The position numbers and the translations under genes were made by a program. From Nitrospirota bacterium (GTDB lineage Bacteria > Nitrospirota > Thermodesulfovibrionia > UBA6902), in contig JACQZF010000006.1 of the NCBI GenBank assembly GCA_016213945.1, positions 124,001 to 188,000 on the forward strand: a stretch of 64,000 bases of DNA, in the 5' to 3' direction. Numbering within the stretch: the first letter of the stretch is position 1; the number at the start of each line of letters is the position of its first letter. Shown here in pieces: positions 47,923 to 60,835 of this stretch. The notes under the pieces are model-generated. The model did no database searches. It was not told the DNA's origin and was given only the letters and a program-made list of their open reading frames with translations.

Positions 47923-47962
47923 GGGACAATCGACAAGTTAAACGACTTTTAAGTAAATTACT

Positions 47963-50900
47963 CTATCGTTTTCTTCTCCGTCGTTTTGGTCTTGGAGGTG
48001 GTGTCTGGTTTATTCGACGGTCTATTTCAAGAAGTGTTTGTCTTGCATTCCAAACATCTAATTCTAAGAGGCGTTCAAATAAGTCTAAGCCTTTTTCTCT
48101 GTAACCATCCAGCCGTTGTAAAGTTAAAGCTATATTTATCAGATTTTCCGTACAGATTGTAAAACGGTGACTGATGTTTGATAGTTCCTTTCCAAGCTGA
48201 GTTACAAACGCATTACATACACGATAGATACGGTCAGGATCAGTTGTTAATAAATCTTCAAGATGTTCAATTAAATAGCATGATCTTTCATTAGTTAAGA
48301 TTTTTGGATACTCACAAACTTTATCCAGTATTTTCCACGTATATTCATCAGGGAAGAATGACTTTGCTGAGGCAAACACCTTCGATGTTGCTTTCTGGAC
48401 TGCTTCATTAGAATCAGAAATAAGCTCTAATAATATTTCCGTCGCCATGATTCTGTACTGTGGTTCTGACCACAATTCTGAAGCTGAGAATGCAAGCCCT
48501 ATACGCATATTTTTCATTTTTTGAAATTCGGCAGATCGTCCTTTTTGAATTGAGATTACTTCTCTCTTCACCCAATCTATTTCGGAAAACCACGCATGGC
48601 GTAGCAATAAAATCTCAGCAAAAGCTTGTGCTCCCTGCTTCCAGTCACTATCGCGTAAACTGAATAGCCAATTTGAGACTAACGAATCATCTACCCATGA
48701 TTGAACGCGGGCAATTAAAGTGACGCCGTCATCGCTTTTCATTACATCGGGGAATTTAGAGAACAAAGAATCAAGGAATTTTTCAGATCGAATTTTATCA
48801 CCGAGATTTAAATTTGGTAAATAATGAGTTAATGTTTTCCACACTTCAGGATTTTCTTTACGCTGCACATGTTTTTCCAGAAGTGACAACCAGCCATCAA
48901 TGTCCGGGGAGTCTTTCCATAAATAAGCTTTCGTAAGTGTATCGAGGATGGGGTAGTTCCCATGTGGAACCACAATCATTCTATGTGATTGCCAAAGTAC
49001 ACTGGCAACATCATTGGCCTTTTTATTTTCTTTTTCATTCGTATCTTCTTGTTTTTCTACGGTGACTGATTTTAACCAACTTTCAAATAACTGAAAGAGG
49101 TCTACTGGCAATTCGTGATCCGAATCTAACCTTTCTCCAACTGCTCTTGCAGCATAATGACGGAAGTCCTCGCCTTCAAAACCAGCGTTATTAAGTTTTT
49201 GAATCAATTCAAACAACGTTTGAAATGGTAATTCTGATTTACTTAATCCTTCTAAAGCATGCCCTACTGTAATTTCGTTTCTTTTTGGTTGCATGCGAAA
49301 TATTAACCCAACTACTCTCTCCGGCTGTTCTTTTGCTAATTCGCCCAAAACCCTTGAAGCTTGAATAGTGCCGCCTTTCTCTCTAAATCTTGGATGATCC
49401 CAACCAGTGGCGTCTGTTAATTCATTAAACAACTTCAACAGTTCTTCATCCTGAGCCTTTGCCATTTGTTGAGCGGACATTTGGCTATCAACTGAATGCA
49501 TACCGCTAAAACATACATCTTTATCACTGAGATGAGGAAATGCACGTTTTTCTTCTTCTAATAATCGCTTTGTTCTTTTACTCATGTATTCAGAGGGAAA
49601 AGCTCTTAATAGTCTAAGCCTATGCTCGCGGTTATACCTAATTCGGTCAAGACGTATATTAGGAGATTCTTCATGCCAAGAGTCCTTGTACATATTGAAT
49701 TGAGAGATTGCAATTTCGAGTTCCTGAGTTCTTTTCTTATCAAGTTTGGGTACCACAAGTTTAATAAGATCAATCGTGTCTGAATGACAGTCCTGATAAC
49801 TTCCGAGGATTAAGCGTCTTTCATCTTCCATTAGGAATTCATAAACTTTTGCTGGATAAGAGGCTACAATTTTTCTCAAACCTCTTGCCAGCAGCCGCTG
49901 CACAACCAAGAAATCTTCAACTTTGAGTTTTTCGTAAAAAGCCCAAAAATTATCTGCATCTTTTTCTGCAAGATTTTTTACAGCGCTTTCAACAGAATAT
50001 ACTATTGGATATTCTCTAACACTATCTAAATCGCCTTCTAAATTTGTTGCTAAACAATGGTCGTCGCGATAGCCGATGCGAATATGATGTGGTTCATAAG
50101 CGATGAAGCTGAGAACTTTTGTAAACCATAGCCAAACAGATTCAAGAAAAGCTTTTGGGGCAGCTTCAGCAACTGCAGGTAAATTATATAACCCCTCGCG
50201 TGATTCTAAAAGTTGTTTGTAGGGCTGTAGGTTATCATGTTTTATTTGATAGAGAATTTTTTGTTCATCAGTTTCATCTACTGGTAAATGTGGCAGTTCT
50301 TTTGATGCCTCCTCCTTAGCTTTCTCAAGGCTATGATCAAAATAAGCTCTCACTAATTGAGGGGCAAGTTCAGGCGCGTTTGCAGAAATAAGTGTTGAAA
50401 GAGAATCGATATAATAATCATCCACATCAGTTCGGCCTATCATCCGACAAGCCATGCTCAGTGCTTTTTCATCCCAATCTTTCATGTCATCCAATACCCT
50501 CAGACTTAGATAATCTTTTTCCGGATTAATTAGCCAGTATCTTTCAATCATCTCCAATATTTTCTCTCTGTCGTAATTCAATGCGCTTTTTAAAATAAAA
50601 AGAACATCGATAGCCTGATTAGGTGGGAGTGACATAAACATCGGGATATGCGTGTCCATAAGACGATGAAACCATCCATGGCTTTCAGTCATGCAAGACA
50701 ATATTCTCCGTCTGTATTGAGGTTGTATAAGATATGGCAGAAGCCAATTAGCTTCAAAATCTTGAGGATCAGGAATCTGCCCAAGGAACTCAATTAATAA
50801 TATTTTTAAATGAAATTTCAGATCGTCATGGTTCCAGAGTGCACCAAATTCTTTTCTATAGCTTGATTGATCTACGACACGCAGGTAATTTAAAGCATTC

Positions 50901-52453
50901 CAAAGTTGCGGACGAACAAATAAACCATTTTGTCTTTTTAAGACATAATTGGATAGAGACCCTTCTACCCTTACAAATGCACGTGAGCGAGCATATTCAA
51001 AAAGAGTCTGATGTCTAAACCCAACCCTTTGCCTGTCTGATTCAATCGTTAAAATTTCCTGGGCTTCAAGATATTTAATATGCGGTAAATAATCCTGATA
51101 CATGGCAGAAGGCAACCATAATTCCTCCCTCTCCCCCATTGTGGTAGCCATGCTATCAAGCAAATCTACATAGTCCTTTCCGGCTTTCAGAACTTTTTCT
51201 TCCCACAACTTCTCCAACATAGCGTAATAAGAATGGAATATTTCAGTTGTACTGCTCCCCTGACAGATATCAATAAATATTTTCAAGTATTGCGGGATAC
51301 GAAGTAATTCCAGAAAGTCTGCAGACCAACCCGCGGTTTGTATCCCTTTCTCTTGTATGAGTGCAGACACTCTGTCAATAGATGGGGATTCCAAAAGTAT
51401 ATTATCAGCTTCTATGTTTCTAAGGCGGGGATCGTGTTGATGTTCAAAAGAACGACATGATGCAACTATATGAACATTAGGTAATCCTGATAAATCATGT
51501 ATCAAATCAAGCAGAACGTTAAGACGCCCTGAATGCAGATCAACCATATCTGCAAGCGCATCAAGCTGATCAACAATGAGTACAACGGGTTCCAGCTTCG
51601 ATAAGCCCTCAATGCAATAACGGGAGGCAGCAGGCAAATGAAAAGTCTTCATTAATTGTTCAGATGTCCCGATATCGGCAGGTAAAAGATCTGCTTTAAT
51701 CGCCATCAATGCTATGTTATTAACTACAAATTCATGGGCAAGTCGCGACAGTAATGCAGACTTGCCACTTCCGGGCGGACCTAAAAGAAGTGTGATGCTA
51801 TTTAGTTCAGATCTTATCTTTTCTCTGATCTGATTTAATTCATCTCTCTCTAACCACCGTCCATCTGATAAAGTAGATGGCCAGTTTAAAAGAGAATCTG
51901 ATGCTTTGAATAATGCTTTTTTGATATTGTCAAAAGTGATGTTGATGGTAATTAGATCTGGTTTTTGAAGTGAACTGATGGCTAATTGATTGATCTCCTG
52001 AATAGATTTCGAAAAGTTTCCTAAAACCTGCTCATCTCCGCCAATTGCGGCAAGCAGCAGATGTAAAGTTTCCGAATTGTCTAAGCCGTCTCGAAAATCT
52101 ACCCATGTATTTCTTCTAAGAAAGCGCGACAAACTGCTCGAGCTTGCTCCAGGTAAGAGAACAGGTATTACAGGGAAATTGTCTTCATTAATTTGACGGT
52201 TTAAAGCAATATCAATTTCAGCCCTTTGATATCTACCTATTCCATGAGAGCCTATAAAAACAGCACAGCATTTAGAGCTGTTAAAAGCTGATTCAATTTT
52301 TTCAAGTGATGAACGCCCTGGCAATAGATGCCATTTATCTAAAAATGAGTTTATCCCTTTGTCCTGCAAAAGACGTTCAATAGTTTTTACTATTGGTTTG
52401 TCCTTATCGTTGTGGCATAAAAATACGTCAAAAAGGAGCGTCATTTTTCTCAT
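47963..52453 (-). CDS. TIR-STAND NTPase with large helical-repeat sensor region (candidate antiphage protein)
   Basis: About 1496 residues. An N-terminal TIR domain (about 7-135) has FDVFLCHNDKDKPIVKTI, FLDKWHLLPGRSSLEKIES (holding candidate catalytic Glu) and CCAVFIGSHGIG. A STAND/NACHT-like ATPase follows (about 195-470) with GPPGSGKSALL (226-236), VVLIVDQLDAL (291-301) and IVASCRSFE. The remaining roughly 1000 residues are alpha-helical repeats, ending in a basic tail (RPKRRRRK). TIR domains cleave NAD+ and STAND modules oligomerise when triggered, so this could be a one-protein defence sensor like Avs or TIR-STAND systems. The start is ATG 52453 (in-frame alternatives: a TTG at 52456 and an ATG at 52444). 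It is AT-rich and convergent with the radical SAM gene. Confidence 0.9.
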   Translation of the reverse strand: MRKMTLLFDVFLCHNDKDKPIVKTIERLLQDKGINSFLDKWHLLPGRSSLEKIESAFNSSKCCAVFIGSHGIGRYQRAEIDIALNRQINEDNFPVIPVLLPGASSSSLSRFLRRNTWVDFRDGLDNSETLHLLLAAIGGDEQVLGNFSKSIQEINQLAISSLQKPDLITINITFDNIKKALFKASDSLLNWPSTLSDGRWLERDELNQIREKIRSELNSITLLLGPPGSGKSALLSRLAHEFVVNNIALMAIKADLLPADIGTSEQLMKTFHLPAASRYCIEGLSKLEPVVLIVDQLDALADMVDLHSGRLNVLLDLIHDLSGLPNVHIVASCRSFEHQHDPRLRNIEADNILLESPSIDRVSALIQEKGIQTAGWSADFLELLRIPQYLKIFIDICQGSSTTEIFHSYYAMLEKLWEEKVLKAGKDYVDLLDSMATTMGEREELWLPSAMYQDYLPHIKYLEAQEILTIESDRQRVGFRHQTLFEYARSRAFVRVEGSLSNYVLKRQNGLFVRPQLWNALNYLRVVDQSSYRKEFGALWNHDDLKFHLKILLIEFLGQIPDPQDFEANWLLPYLIQPQYRRRILSCMTESHGWFHRLMDTHIPMFMSLPPNQAIDVLFILKSALNYDREKILEMIERYWLINPEKDYLSLRVLDDMKDWDEKALSMACRMIGRTDVDDYYIDSLSTLISANAPELAPQLVRAYFDHSLEKAKEEASKELPHLPVDETDEQKILYQIKHDNLQPYKQLLESREGLYNLPAVAEAAPKAFLESVWLWFTKVLSFIAYEPHHIRIGYRDDHCLATNLEGDLDSVREYPIVYSVESAVKNLAEKDADNFWAFYEKLKVEDFLVVQRLLARGLRKIVASYPAKVYEFLMEDERRLILGSYQDCHSDTIDLIKLVVPKLDKKRTQELEIAISQFNMYKDSWHEESPNIRLDRIRYNREHRLRLLRAFPSEYMSKRTKRLLEEEKRAFPHLSDKDVCFSGMHSVDSQMSAQQMAKAQDEELLKLFNELTDATGWDHPRFREKGGTIQASRVLGELAKEQPERVVGLIFRMQPKRNEITVGHALEGLSKSELPFQTLFELIQKLNNAGFEGEDFRHYAARAVGERLDSDHELPVDLFQLFESWLKSVTVEKQEDTNEKENKKANDVASVLWQSHRMIVVPHGNYPILDTLTKAYLWKDSPDIDGWLSLLEKHVQRKENPEVWKTLTHYLPNLNLGDKIRSEKFLDSLFSKFPDVMKSDDGVTLIARVQSWVDDSLVSNWLFSLRDSDWKQGAQAFAEILLLRHAWFSEIDWVKREVISIQKGRSAEFQKMKNMRIGLAFSASELWSEPQYRIMATEILLELISDSNEAVQKATSKVFASAKSFFPDEYTWKILDKVCEYPKILTNERSCYLIEHLEDLLTTDPDRIYRVCNAFVTQLGKELSNISHRFTICTENLINIALTLQRLDGYREKGLDLFERLLELDVWNARQTLLEIDRRINQTPPPRPKRRRRKR

Positions 52454-52646
52454 CAAAATTTATTAGATATTATGAAGAGCATTATTAATCCTTTTTTCAT
52501 TTCTAACCAAGCCCCAATTTTTATTCTGAATATCATAAGCAAGATAATGGGATGTTTTCAAGTTCAACAACCTAATACTCTAAGAAAAGTTCTCTTGAAT
52601 GGAGGTGCAACAAACTGCTCGTGTAGAAACTTTTGCTATAGCTTAT

Positions 52647-52675
52647 TTGATATTTTCTTGTTGCTAATCTATGAT
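52647..52675 (+). promoter_or_regulatory. promoter of the DUF433/DUF5615 pair
   Basis: TTGATA (52647-52652), 17-nt spacer, TATGAT (52670-52675). It lies 33 nt before the antitoxin ATG, whose ribosome site AAAGGAGGG is strong. The rest of the 255-nt gap from the TIR gene shows no convincing gene. Confidence 0.7.
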
Positions 52676-52708
52676 GAATACATAGGCCGCATTAAAGGAG
52701 GGCAAAAG

Positions 52709-52924
52709 ATGTTTGACAGGATAACGTTTGATTCTCAGATCATGGGGGGCAGGGCTTGTATCAGGGGAATGAGAATTCCAGTCTCTGTGATTGTTGGACA
52801 AATCGCACATGGTGCCAGGGTTGAAGAAATTCTCTCCGACTATCCCGACCTTGAGCCGGAAGATATCCAGCAGGCGCTTGAATACGCTGCCTGGCTTACC
52901 CAGGAAGAAGTTACCACGGGATAA
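52709..52924 (+). CDS. DUF433 family antitoxin (VapB-like)
   Basis: 71 residues matching DUF433: FDRITFDSQIMGGRACIRG, MRIPVSVIVGQIAHGARVEEILSDYPDL split by the conserved turn, and LEPEDIQQALEYAAWL. DUF433 proteins contain a winged-helix-like DNA-binding fold and act as antitoxins to PIN-like toxins. I use the ATG at 52709 because of its strong ribosome site; a longer frame to 52472 has no family match. The next gene begins 10 nt after the stop codon, forming a toxin-antitoxin pair. AT-rich context with the TIR gene suggests acquired DNA. Confidence 0.88.
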   Translation: MFDRITFDSQIMGGRACIRGMRIPVSVIVGQIAHGARVEEILSDYPDLEPEDIQQALEYAAWLTQEEVTTG

Positions 52925-52934
52925 CCAGACCTTT

Positions 52935-53300
52935 ATGAAATTCCTTGCTGATATGGGCGTGTCAATGAGGGTTGTTGAAGAGTTGAGGTCCTGTGGGCAT
53001 GATGTAGTACATCTTCGCGAAGAAGGCTTGCATAAACTCCCTGACAAAGATATTTTCAAAAAGGCTACCCATGAGAACCGTATTATTCTCACTTTCGATT
53101 TAGACTTTGGAGAAATTATCGCTTTTTCTGAAAAGGCGACTGTTAGTGTAATTGTTTTCCGTCTCCGCAATACACGCACACCTTTCGTGATAGAACGTCT
53201 CAACCAGGTTTTAGCAGGGACAGTTGCTTCCCTCGAAGAAGGATGCATTGTAACTGTTGAAGATGCAAGATATCGCATACGTAAATTACCAATATCATAA
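52935..53300 (+). CDS. DUF5615 family PIN-like toxin
   Basis: 121 residues matching DUF5615: MKFLADMGVSMRVVEELRS, then GHDVVHLREEGLHKLPD, IILTFDLDFGEIIAFS and RLRNTRTPFVIERLNQVL. The conserved Asp residues (D6; the DLDFGE pair at about 55-60) are arranged as in PIN-like RNases. It is paired with the DUF433 antitoxin just upstream. No strong ribosome site precedes the ATG, so it may be translated by coupling. Confidence 0.85.
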   Translation: MKFLADMGVSMRVVEELRSCGHDVVHLREEGLHKLPDKDIFKKATHENRIILTFDLDFGEIIAFSEKATVSVIVFRLRNTRTPFVIERLNQVLAGTVASLEEGCIVTVEDARYRIRKLPIS

Positions 53301-53390
53301 TTTCCCATATTTGCCTTTCGCCTCAAGCTTGATAACCCGCAAGTTCTCAGTTGTATCGATACCCGATTCCCTATTATTTCATTGTTGTAA

Positions 53391-53396
53391 TATAAT
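53391..53396 (+). promoter_or_regulatory. mutL -10 box (possible leaderless promoter)
   Basis: A perfect TATAAT ends 5 nt before the mutL ATG at 53402. No good -35 box is present at 17 nt. The position resembles that of the recN and dnaG promoters. Confidence 0.4.
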
Positions 53397-53401
53397 CACT
53401 T

Positions 53402-57701: not shown

Positions 57702-58061
57702 ATGAAACAACAGTTGAGTAAAGCCATTAACGATTACATGAAATTGCTTAGGAAGCACTATGAGACTAAGATATTAAAGGTTATATTATTCGGTTCAGCC
57801 GCAAGGGGGGAATACAGCAAGGAATCTGATGCGGATATCCTCATAGTTGTATCAGACAGCACTGTAAAAATAAAAGATGAAATCAGCATGTCTGCATATG
57901 AAATTATGCTCAAGAACAATGTCGTACTTTCTCCTATTGTAATGGACAGTGGCACATATGATTGGTACAAAAAGAACGGTGATCCATTTTATAAGAATAT
58001 CCAGAGGGACGGGATTGACATTTGGACGAGAAAACAAAAGAGCTTATTAAAGTCCGCTTAG
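57702..58061 (+). CDS. MNT-family nucleotidyltransferase (antitoxin of a HEPN/MNT pair)
   Basis: 119 residues of the minimal nucleotidyltransferase fold. The active motif GSAARGEYSKESDADILIVV holds Gly-Ser and the Asp pair that bind metal and ATP. In HEPN/MNT toxin-antitoxin systems this enzyme AMPylates or blocks the HEPN RNase. The downstream HEPN gene overlaps its 3' end by about 40 nt. AT-rich codon use differs from moaC upstream. Confidence 0.88.
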   Translation: MKQQLSKAINDYMKLLRKHYETKILKVILFGSAARGEYSKESDADILIVVSDSTVKIKDEISMSAYEIMLKNNVVLSPIVMDSGTYDWYKKNGDPFYKNIQRDGIDIWTRKQKSLLKSA

Positions 58062-58423
58062 AGAAGGCTGAAGAAGATATTGAGACTGCCGGGGAACTGT
58101 TATCGCTCAGAAGATACAGAGCTGTAGTAAATAGAGCTTATTACTCATTGTTCAGCGTTACCACTGCGGTGTTACTCACTAAGAAGCTTGAAAGGTCAAA
58201 ACACTCTGGAGTTGAAGCGGCATTCAATCAATATTTCGTAAAAAACAAAATCATCGAGGTTGAATACGGAAAGATATTTGATTACGTGAGAAGGAAGAGA
58301 GAAGAGAGTGATTATAATGCCAAAATTATCATTGATAAAGAAGCGGCAGAAAAGATCGTGAAGGATTCCAGCAGATTCATAAGGCGAATGAAAAAATATC
58401 TGAGAAGTGTTGCAGGCGGATAG
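58022..58423 (+). CDS. HEPN-domain protein (toxin of a HEPN/MNT pair)
   Basis: 133 residues, all helical, of the UPF0332/HEPN type: KAEEDIETAGELLSLRRYRAVVNRAYYSLFSV and a C-terminal helix bundle. The typical RNase motif R-x4-6-H is not seen; the usual NRAYYxxFH site reads NRAYYSLFS. The toxin may be inactive as an RNase or belong to a variant class. The start is a TTG (58022) inside the MNT gene. Confidence 0.85.
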   Translation: MDEKTKELIKVRLEKAEEDIETAGELLSLRRYRAVVNRAYYSLFSVTTAVLLTKKLERSKHSGVEAAFNQYFVKNKIIEVEYGKIFDYVRRKREESDYNAKIIIDKEAAEKIVKDSSRFIRRMKKYLRSVAGG

Positions 58424-58492
58424 GGAACAAGAGCTATGAAGAACTTCCAGTTTAACGCTAAGCAAAATTTAAAAACTTTTTTGGAGGGGTAA

Positions 58493-60214
58493 ATGAAACA
58501 CGCAAGCAAATACATTTCTCTTTTTCTTATATTCTTGTTTACAGGCATATTACTGAATAGCTGCGCTACCACACCAAAACCTGTCGGAGCACTTAACAAG
58601 GTGGAAGTAATAGAAAGATATTTCAAGGATCGAAGCCTTGATGACATTGAAGGTATTTGGGTTAGAGAAGACAACTCTTTCGAAATAGCAGTCTTGAAAA
58701 ATTCCTTTAACATATTTCCTGGCTATGATTATGTTGGGATAATTACTGATACAAATAACAGAGATTGGGGAGTTGGAGAAACAAAGCTTTTAATCAAAAA
58801 AACAAGTAATCAGAACAGATACGTGATATCGTATTTTGATGACGACGCAGCCGCAACTAAATCTCAAAACGAAACTGATCTGATCATGATAGGTGATCAT
58901 TTAGCCAAGATGTCGTTTGGCAGAACGAATTATGTGCTCATAAAGAATTACCCTCAACCTGAGGCGGTCTGCAGGGTTGGATTTGCATATAGTAAAACCA
59001 CTCTTCTCTTGAAAGTTGTTTCTCCATATGCCAGCATTGCTGGTCTTTTACCAGGAGATAAACTAAAGGCCATAAATGGAGAGCAGGTATTAACTGGCGA
59101 GGATGTTCTTTCAAAGATTGACAAAAAAAGAGCTGGCGATAGTATCAAAGTTGCCGTAGAGAGAAATCAAAAAATAATTGAAGTAGAGGCTGTTTGTAAA
59201 GATGGTAACAAGATGCAACAGGGGCTAACAGAGATTTTTATAGCAGAAGGTCAAGGCAAATGGGATGAATGTATTTCAAAATCTTACGATGCTGAACAGG
59301 AATGGGGAAAATCATCTAATCTTTCCGGGATCCGCCTCGACTGTGCTGAAAAGAAAAGACTTGAAGACAATCGCATGCCGAACGTATACTCTGCTGAATT
59401 AGTTTATGAATACCGTAGAAGAATGATAGCTGAAGCGGTTAACTCGCAAGACGACCTTGAATCAATAAGGAGTGATGTATTAAAAGCACGCTCTTGGTTA
59501 GAATCAAATAATTTTAATGCCTTTGCTGATGATCTCAGCAAACAATGGGAAGCCGCGATAAAATCACAAACCTCAAGGCCCGCTCCGATGGGGACTGAAT
59601 CAAAATCTTTTGGGACAGGGTTTATTGTATCACCTGACGGACTTATACTTACCGCTTATCATGTAGTAGAGAAAGCCAAATCAATCAAAGTAGTTTTGGA
59701 TGAGCGCTCATTTGAAGCATTTATCCAGCAATCTTCTAAATCTACTGACCTGGCAGTTCTTCGGGTAAGTGCATTAACCCCTAATTATCTCCCTCTTGTC
59801 CCAATAAAAACATCAAAGGTAGGTGAACCCATATTTACTATGGGGTTTCCGGTAGAACAAATCTTGGGAAAAGAACCAAAATTTACAGACGGAACAATAA
59901 GCGCTTTATCAGGTATACGTGACGAGGCGACATTTTTCCAGATGTCAATCCCTATTCAACCAGGCAATTCAGGCGGCCCAGTAATAAATAATAAAGGTGA
60001 AGTAATTGGTATTGTCACCTCATCAGCCGCAGTACTACCATTTTTATCTAATACAGGGACACTACCACAAAATATTAACTGGGCTGTGAAGTCAGATTAT
60101 GCGATTCCTCTTTTTAGCGCACCCCCAACATTGCAACCATCTCATGATCGTGAAGCTGCAATTGAACGTGTAAGAAATGCTTTATGTGCGATTGAGGCGA
60201 CTATATCGGAGTAA
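58493..60214 (+). CDS. lipoprotein trypsin-like protease with N-terminal PDZ domain
   Basis: 573 residues. A lipobox (FTGILLNSCATT; Cys near 24) makes it a predicted lipoprotein. A poorly conserved region (30-150) precedes a PDZ domain (about 155-235; GLLPGDKLKAINGEQVLTGEDVL split by a loop) and a helical linker. The S1C protease (about 365-555) has His in TAYHVVE (about 390), Asp in STDLAVL (about 418) and Ser in QPGNSGGP (about 494). The PDZ-before-protease order is the reverse of DegP. It may process or sense envelope proteins. Codon use is AT-rich like the MNT/HEPN pair. GGAGGGG precedes the ATG. Confidence 0.88.
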   Translation: MKHASKYISLFLIFLFTGILLNSCATTPKPVGALNKVEVIERYFKDRSLDDIEGIWVREDNSFEIAVLKNSFNIFPGYDYVGIITDTNNRDWGVGETKLLIKKTSNQNRYVISYFDDDAAATKSQNETDLIMIGDHLAKMSFGRTNYVLIKNYPQPEAVCRVGFAYSKTTLLLKVVSPYASIAGLLPGDKLKAINGEQVLTGEDVLSKIDKKRAGDSIKVAVERNQKIIEVEAVCKDGNKMQQGLTEIFIAEGQGKWDECISKSYDAEQEWGKSSNLSGIRLDCAEKKRLEDNRMPNVYSAELVYEYRRRMIAEAVNSQDDLESIRSDVLKARSWLESNNFNAFADDLSKQWEAAIKSQTSRPAPMGTESKSFGTGFIVSPDGLILTAYHVVEKAKSIKVVLDERSFEAFIQQSSKSTDLAVLRVSALTPNYLPLVPIKTSKVGEPIFTMGFPVEQILGKEPKFTDGTISALSGIRDEATFFQMSIPIQPGNSGGPVINNKGEVIGIVTSSAAVLPFLSNTGTLPQNINWAVKSDYAIPLFSAPPTLQPSHDREAAIERVRNALCAIEATISE

Positions 60215-60274
60215 AAATAGCCCTGCATATTTTGATATATCTGTGGTATCCTATTTGGGAAATTTAGAAAGACC

Positions 60275-60835
60275 TTGAGAAGTTTTATTGCGATAGAATT
60301 ATCAGAAGCGGCAATATCAGCCCTGTCGGCGCTTCAGCAGGAACTTAAAAAAAGCGGGGCGGATGTCAGATGGGTCAGGCCTGAGGGCATTCATCTGACA
60401 CTCAAGTTCCTCGGCAATATTGAGGAAAAAGACGCTGACAGGATTGTAAAAATAATTGAGGGGACCTGCAAGAAATACACGGCATTCAATCTTGAACTCA
60501 GAGGAGCAGGCGTTTTCTCTAACATGAAATCCCCGCGCGTTTTATGGATCGGCGTAACCGGCAACGGAGCTTTTATAAAACTTCAGCAGGAAATCGAATA
60601 TGGGATAGCCTCTCTGGGGTTTGAAAAGGAAGACAGAAGGTTCACTCCTCATCTTACCCTCGGCAGGTTCAGGTCGATGTCAGGAAAAGACGCTCTACTG
60701 AATGCAATTGGATCGCATAAAGAAAGCAAATTCTGCGTCATTGAAGTCAGGGCTGTTTATTTAATGAGAAGCGATTTAAGCCCGGCAGGGGCAAAGTATA
60801 CAAGAGTAGCGGAGATACCACTTGGGAGCCGGTAG
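60275..60835 (+). CDS. thpR: RNA 2',3'-cyclic phosphodiesterase ThpR
   Basis: 186 residues with the two H-x-T-L motifs of the 2H phosphoesterases: IHLTLKFLG (about 40) and TPHLTLGRF (about 127). N-terminal RSFIAIELSEAAI and GVFSNMKSPRVLWIGV are family-typical. It hydrolyses 2',3'-cyclic phosphates at RNA ends. The start appears to be TTG (60275). A heptanucleotide array begins at its stop codon. Confidence 0.93.
   Translation: MRSFIAIELSEAAISALSALQQELKKSGADVRWVRPEGIHLTLKFLGNIEEKDADRIVKIIEGTCKKYTAFNLELRGAGVFSNMKSPRVLWIGVTGNGAFIKLQQEIEYGIASLGFEKEDRRFTPHLTLGRFRSMSGKDALLNAIGSHKESKFCVIEVRAVYLMRSDLSPAGAKYTRVAEIPLGSR

Follow-up and report, generated by a model that had tools for sequence, protein, structure and literature searches.

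A TIR-bearing STAND-solenoid protein from a Nitrospirota bacterium is a probable single-protein antiphage receptor

Overview

In the Nitrospirota bacterium of assembly GCA_016213945.1 (class Thermodesulfovibrionia), one large minus-strand gene probably encodes an NLR-like antiphage receptor that unites all steps, from recognition of the phage to depletion of nicotinamide adenine dinucleotide (NAD+), in a single polypeptide. The gene lies on the 247-kb contig JACQZF010000006.1, within the window analysed here (64,000 nucleotides, positions 124,001 to 188,000 of the forward strand), and its product combines an N-terminal TIR domain, a STAND ATPase and a long helical solenoid (Table 1). Beyond this architecture, the evidence comprises a glutamate at the catalytic position of the TIR domain, P-loop motifs, a core homologous to that of STAND proteins equipped with other effectors, the exchange of effectors at one joint and the location of the gene on a mobile insertion.

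The open reading frame (ORF) is intact and runs without interruption from the ATG at 52453 to the stop codon at 47963-47965; an alternative TTG start three bases upstream (52456) would yield 1497 codons. Since full-length relatives with about 54 % identity are found in metagenome-assembled genomes (MAGs) of Planctomycetota and the shared core is under purifying selection (ratio of nonsynonymous to synonymous rates, dN/dS, ~0.15), a chance ORF can be excluded. A large single TIR-STAND gene with about 1000 residues of repeats, as perceived in an earlier sequence-only reading of this DNA, is borne out by the ORF, Pfam, the motifs and the helical model.

The TIR domain and its active site

Both the Pfam TIR_2 match and the alternating beta/alpha order of the structural model identify a TIR fold at the N-terminus. 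The catalytic-position glutamate is E79, which aligns with E208 in the solved structure of AbTIR, lies inside the alpha-C helix of the model (residues 74-89) and is conserved in all 16 related TIRs compared. The sequence-only reading, which had looked for this residue near positions 52-55 and proposed structure prediction to settle it, was mistaken on this point: those positions belong to alpha-B, the helix spanning residues 48-59, with no conservation at position 51. Moreover, D39 occupies the position of AbTIR D167, while C13 aligns with AbTIR S140.

The tryptophan of the WxxxE motif is replaced by Y75 in the window protein and by isoleucine in three relatives (L003, L004 and L005), the other 13 TIRs having kept it. 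Full activity of AbTIR and formation of its cyclic product depend on this residue; TcpC, by contrast, can dispense with it and makes ADP-ribose (PMC11374754, PMC10937652). Required in one enzyme and dispensable in the other, the tryptophan is not strictly defining for a TIR NADase, and its replacement here and in the closest relatives suggests plain NAD+ hydrolysis rather than signalling through cyclic ADP-ribose.

The ATPase and the solenoid

The STAND module contains a Walker A motif (GPPGSGKS, residues 225-232), a Walker B motif (VVLIVDQLD, 290-298) and a GxP-like element, RIPQYL, at 385-390. In Pfam, the P-loop region (~198-345) matches AAA above the cut-off (3.9e-7), with AAA_16, nSTAND_NTPase5 and NACHT remaining below it. 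The AlphaFold models, built from shallow alignments (predicted local distance difference test, pLDDT, 70 and 67), place the TIR domain first, then the STAND module with a winged-helix region and finally a solenoid of about 50 helices, residues 521-1496 being modelled as almost purely helical. When residues 1-640 are submitted to Foldseek, Avs4 bound to a phage portal comes first and the plant TIR-NLR RPP1 (7dfv) ranks second to third, with NOD2, NLRC4 and NLRP3 also within the top ten. Residues 521-1496 find HEAT/ARM proteins such as CAND1 and karyopherins as their nearest neighbours. Because the TM-scores are low, these likenesses of the models are statements about fold class and do not imply close homology.

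The TIR- and DUF4062-bearing members of the family end in an Arg/Lys-rich tail, which in the window protein takes up about the last 12 residues (window 47966-48010). The tail sequences are RPKRRRRKR, RPSRRRRRRGK and RPTRLRRRRTVVRK; the nuclease-type members L027 and L028 are devoid of it.

Placement among known defence systems

By sequence, the gene is best described as a TIR-bearing variant of a STAND-solenoid family represented by the PADLOC candidate PDC-M54A and by the protein deposited as PDB 9n00/9n01/9yix. PDC-M54A matches the STAND core and the beginning of the solenoid (9e-15, spanning about 300 residues of the window protein) and is the only defence profile to reach into the solenoid; all family members checked match it as well. 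In the members of the profile, about 300 N-terminal residues align with the nuclease-like relative L075 and not with a TIR domain. It is because a TIR domain replaces this nuclease-like N-terminus, which is not present here, that the gene is placed as a variant. The homology extends through the ATPase into the solenoid, and the core aligns over its full length to SEFIR and DUF4062 members at 31-34 % identity. The PDB entry, an “AAA family ATPase” of 1523 amino acids, is the only full-size solved sequence relative; it aligns remotely (6e-18 over residues 206-578), leaves out the TIR domain and is matched again by relatives of the window protein. Our literature search found no paper for PDC-M54A or for the three entry codes, and the receptor family, known by one candidate profile and one structure, is little studied. 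The statement of the sequence-only reading that the repeat region fits no nameable family was thus nearly right, except that this family could be found.

In layout, the protein conforms to Avs (AVAST) receptors such as Avs4 (8dgf) and Avs5, with which it shares an N-terminal effector, a STAND ATPase and a large C-terminal sensor, but it differs from them in its HEAT-like solenoid and TIR effector. The PADLOC models of Avs1-5 give no match at E<=1, and one relative matches Avs2 weakly (3.5e-4) in the ATPase region only. The Avs-like position ascribed earlier to the TIR domain therefore holds for the layout, as the Foldseek match to Avs4 indicates, and fails for the family. Likewise, neither the TIR-NLR model PDLC03015 nor the DSR1/DSR2 models match at E<=1. 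The bNACHT antiphage proteins have a NACHT-like P-loop module in common with the window protein, but the Pfam NACHT score stays below the cut-off (20.7 versus 26.7; the relative P0002 passes at 29.1), and the TIR effector and very long solenoid set it apart. On these grounds, membership in Avs1-5, TIR-NLR, DSR or bNACHT was rejected.

In RPP1, as here, the TIR domain precedes a nucleotide-binding STAND module. This module is of the NB-ARC rather than the NACHT-like type, the sensor consists of leucine-rich repeats and signalling depends on EDS1. Effectors of the kinds known from Swarozyc (DUF4062, a TIR-like NADase) and bSEFIR occur on the STAND core of the present family, but the named systems are without this STAND-solenoid core. 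In its mode of action the protein would resemble Avs, TIR-NLR and Avs5-type receptors, yet none of the Avs, DSR and TIR-NLR models matches it.

Other effectors on the same core and their exchange

Three further kinds of N-terminus are found on this core. A DUF4062-like domain is present in the Nitrospirota protein L025 (PDC-S60, 2e-10; Pfam DUF4062 only 0.065), a SEFIR domain in a protein encoded by a Nostoc plasmid (L074; bSEFIR, 5.8e-53), and PD-(D/E)XK/Cap4-like regions in L027, L028, L030 and L075-L077, where the motif was recognised by eye and has no Pfam match. An LmuA profile supports the nuclease-like assignment for L030 and L078 only. In a maximum-likelihood tree of 11 cores, a small sample, those joined to TIR, SEFIR or DUF4062 separate from those joined to nuclease-like domains with 100/100 support. 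According to a preprint, a DUF4062 protein is a portal-triggered NADase that causes abortive infection and yields plain ADP-ribose (PMC13174449).

When the window protein is aligned to the members bearing SEFIR and DUF4062, the alignments begin at its residues 174 and 176, respectively, and recombination appears to have acted at the same joint. The closest copy, L005, comes from a Nitrospirota MAG whose host belongs to the same order but another family (as taken from a second record, G446). It shares about 92 % DNA identity with the window gene over most of the core and about 60 % over the TIR domain, with the step at codon ~178; synonymous divergence (dS) is 2.0 in the TIR domain and 0.25-0.33 in the core. 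The TIR identities among the window, L005 and Planctomycetota are 50, 52.5 and 54 %, so that the window and L005 TIRs are at roughly the same distance from that of Planctomycetota, while core identity is 88-92 % between the window and L005 and 56-63 % to L003. This combination argues for an exchange of the TIR domain between near-identical cores rather than for faster evolution of the TIR. The pair L003/L004 was considered as a second swap and rejected, since there the TIR is near-identical (proportion of synonymous differences, pS, 0.008) and it is the solenoid that differs, at 22-25 % of synonymous sites and in mosaic blocks. As L003-L005 all derive from MAGs, chimeric assembly is a caveat on the module borders.

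Several members of the family deserve mention for their context. The plasmid-borne genes L075:3229-8810, L074:3012-9092 and L077:2336-7972 have genes for tyrosine integrases close by (in Herpetosiphon, 23 bp upstream), which suggests that they are carried by small mobile elements. In another Nitrospirota genome, the DUF4062-STAND gene L026:5536-9766 has decayed through several frame breaks, its near copy L025 being intact; a DUF5615-looking gene (L026:4836-5204) adjoins it, as one does the window gene.

A variable insertion site

The gene resides in an AT-rich insertion between two core genes, which encode a B12-binding radical SAM protein and MutL; both the base composition (~38-40 % G+C at 48-53 kb versus ~45-50 % in most of the window) and the flanking core genes agree with the sequence-only reading. 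The site was compared across window 47923-53401 and L057, L058, L059, L060 and L061. The closest sister genome, whose flanking proteins are 97 % and 95 % identical, has about 175 bp at the site and no insertion, and the spacing is 31 and 28 bp in two further sisters. In a fourth species the place is taken by a type IIG/I-like restriction-helicase gene and an ORF matching the candidate PDC-S05; in a fifth, by an alpha-amylase-family gene. What lies between the radical SAM gene and mutL thus varies within the genus and, since the insertion is missing in the sisters, the TIR-STAND gene and the adjoining DUF433/DUF5615 pair are most simply explained as a recent gain. No terminal repeats were found at the borders of the insertion, only weak imperfect ones elsewhere.

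Core matches were obtained in 7 of the 230 genomes of the class. Between the window host and the L005 host, the receptor core (88-92 % identity) is more alike than GltX (79 % protein identity), which suggests horizontal transfer of the receptor. A phage origin was rejected: no protein relative was found in viral contigs and no core in phage records.

Proposed mechanism and alternatives

By analogy with Avs, plant TIR-NLR, TIR and DUF4062 biology, we infer the phage trigger, oligomerisation, NAD+ depletion and abortive infection. At rest, the solenoid and an ADP-bound STAND module would hold the TIR domain silent. Upon infection, the solenoid would bind a phage protein, whereupon the STAND module would exchange its nucleotide and oligomerise, bringing TIR domains together so that proximity turns them into NAD+ glycohydrolases. 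NAD+ would then drop and the infected cell abort the infection. The TIR domain is more likely to be the executioner itself, releasing ADP-ribose and nicotinamide, than a second-messenger synthase, because Tyr, or in the closest relatives Ile, takes the place of the active-site tryptophan and no gene for an effector sensing cyclic ADP-ribose adjoins this one.

The same receptor might instead make cyclic ADP-ribose for a distinct effector encoded at another locus of the genome, as in Thoeris. This is plausible insofar as many bacterial TIRs produce isomers of that molecule (PMC10937652, PMC11374754) and another NAD-linked defence locus, one that includes SIR2 (L031), is present in the genome. 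However, the residue linked to the cyclic product is lost here and in three relatives, the insertion contains no ThsA-like gene, and SEFIR and DUF4062, whose studied representative gives plain ADP-ribose, replace TIR in the same clade; we therefore consider such signalling unlikely. Less probable still is a catalytically dead or weak TIR that serves as an assembly domain and recruits another effector. The replaced tryptophan and the cysteine in place of AbTIR S140 would fit this possibility, but E79 is invariant, D39 is present, and the fact that three NADase-type folds replace one another within a single clade points to retention of the enzyme activity. Equally improbable is a regulatory STAND protein that acts on a host process such as stress, cell death or development: STAND proteins do act in regulation and this rare family includes filamentous cyanobacteria, but the patchy AT-rich insertion missing in sister species, the plasmid homologues beside integrases and the sharing of one core by nuclease-like and NADase-type effectors all speak against it.

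An antiphage sensor and NADase, as the sequence-only reading had it, is thus the best-supported account of the protein, its function being put forward on the strength of the TIR glutamate, the NLR-like core, the variable site, the other defence effectors on relatives and the likeness to Avs4 and RPP1. Three points weigh against it. Foldseek gave TM-scores of modest size (TMq 0.43 for Avs4), from models with a pLDDT of ~70; AbTIR, albeit not TcpC, is inhibited when the active-site tryptophan is lost, so that the enzyme studied here may be weak or dead; and the gene is rare, its one near copy, L005, being frame-broken by two deletions (~80 and ~180 bp), so that it may be costly or transient.

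Feature coordinates and neighbouring genes

Table 1. Features of the TIR-STAND-solenoid gene and its insertion (window coordinates)
Feature	Position	Strand	Basis or remark
TIR-STAND-solenoid gene	47963..52453	-	1496 aa from ATG 52453
TIR domain, residues 8-140	52034..52432	-	Pfam TIR_2, 4.3e-20 at residues 10-129
Effector-core junction, ~residues 174-178	51920..51933	-	Start of homology with other-effector cores; TIR-exchange breakpoint
STAND/NACHT-like ATPase and winged-helix region, residues ~176-500	50954..51928	-	Pfam, motifs, model
HEAT/ARM-like helical solenoid, residues ~501-1496, putative sensor	47966..50953	-	Model, Foldseek
AT-rich insertion, 5.5 kb	47923..53401	.	Flanked by the radical SAM gene and mutL; not present in the sister genomes
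DUF433 protein, antitoxin type, 71 aa	52709..52924	+	PF04255, 3.5e-25; divergent neighbour in insertion
DUF5615 PIN-like protein, toxin type, 121 aa	52935..53300	+	PF18480, 9.7e-26; in insertion

The toxin-antitoxin pair noted earlier beside the gene proved to be DUF433 and DUF5615; there is no evidence that the DUF433 neighbour takes part in the mechanism. Downstream of moaC, a second AT-rich segment of the window (58022-60835) encodes a HEPN-domain protein, a PDZ/trypsin-like protease and a LigT/2'-5' RNA ligase-like protein. The NAD-linked locus already mentioned (L031:6560-11043; G000:C84, ~44.6-49.0 kb) consists of a 290-aa SIR2 ORF overlapping by 4 bp the gene for a 1204-aa protein with an N-terminal TIR domain and a Dsr1-like helical body (Dsr1 model, 1.4e-138). 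It looks like Dsr1 split into two genes with a TIR domain added.

Implications

The occurrence of TIR, SEFIR and DUF4062 on one receptor core suggests that these NADase-type domains are interchangeable outputs of a single NLR-like sensor. We give an even chance to the broader proposition that they define a distinct STAND-HEAT branch, restricted to TIR-superfamily effectors, with a fixed plug-in joint near residue 175 at which recombination swaps the effector and keeps the sensor. If this is true, such receptors would evolve by module shuffling, with recognition separated from killing. The natural joint, being sharply mapped, allows one to ask which part sets phage specificity and which the mode of killing, a question that arises for plant and animal NLRs too.

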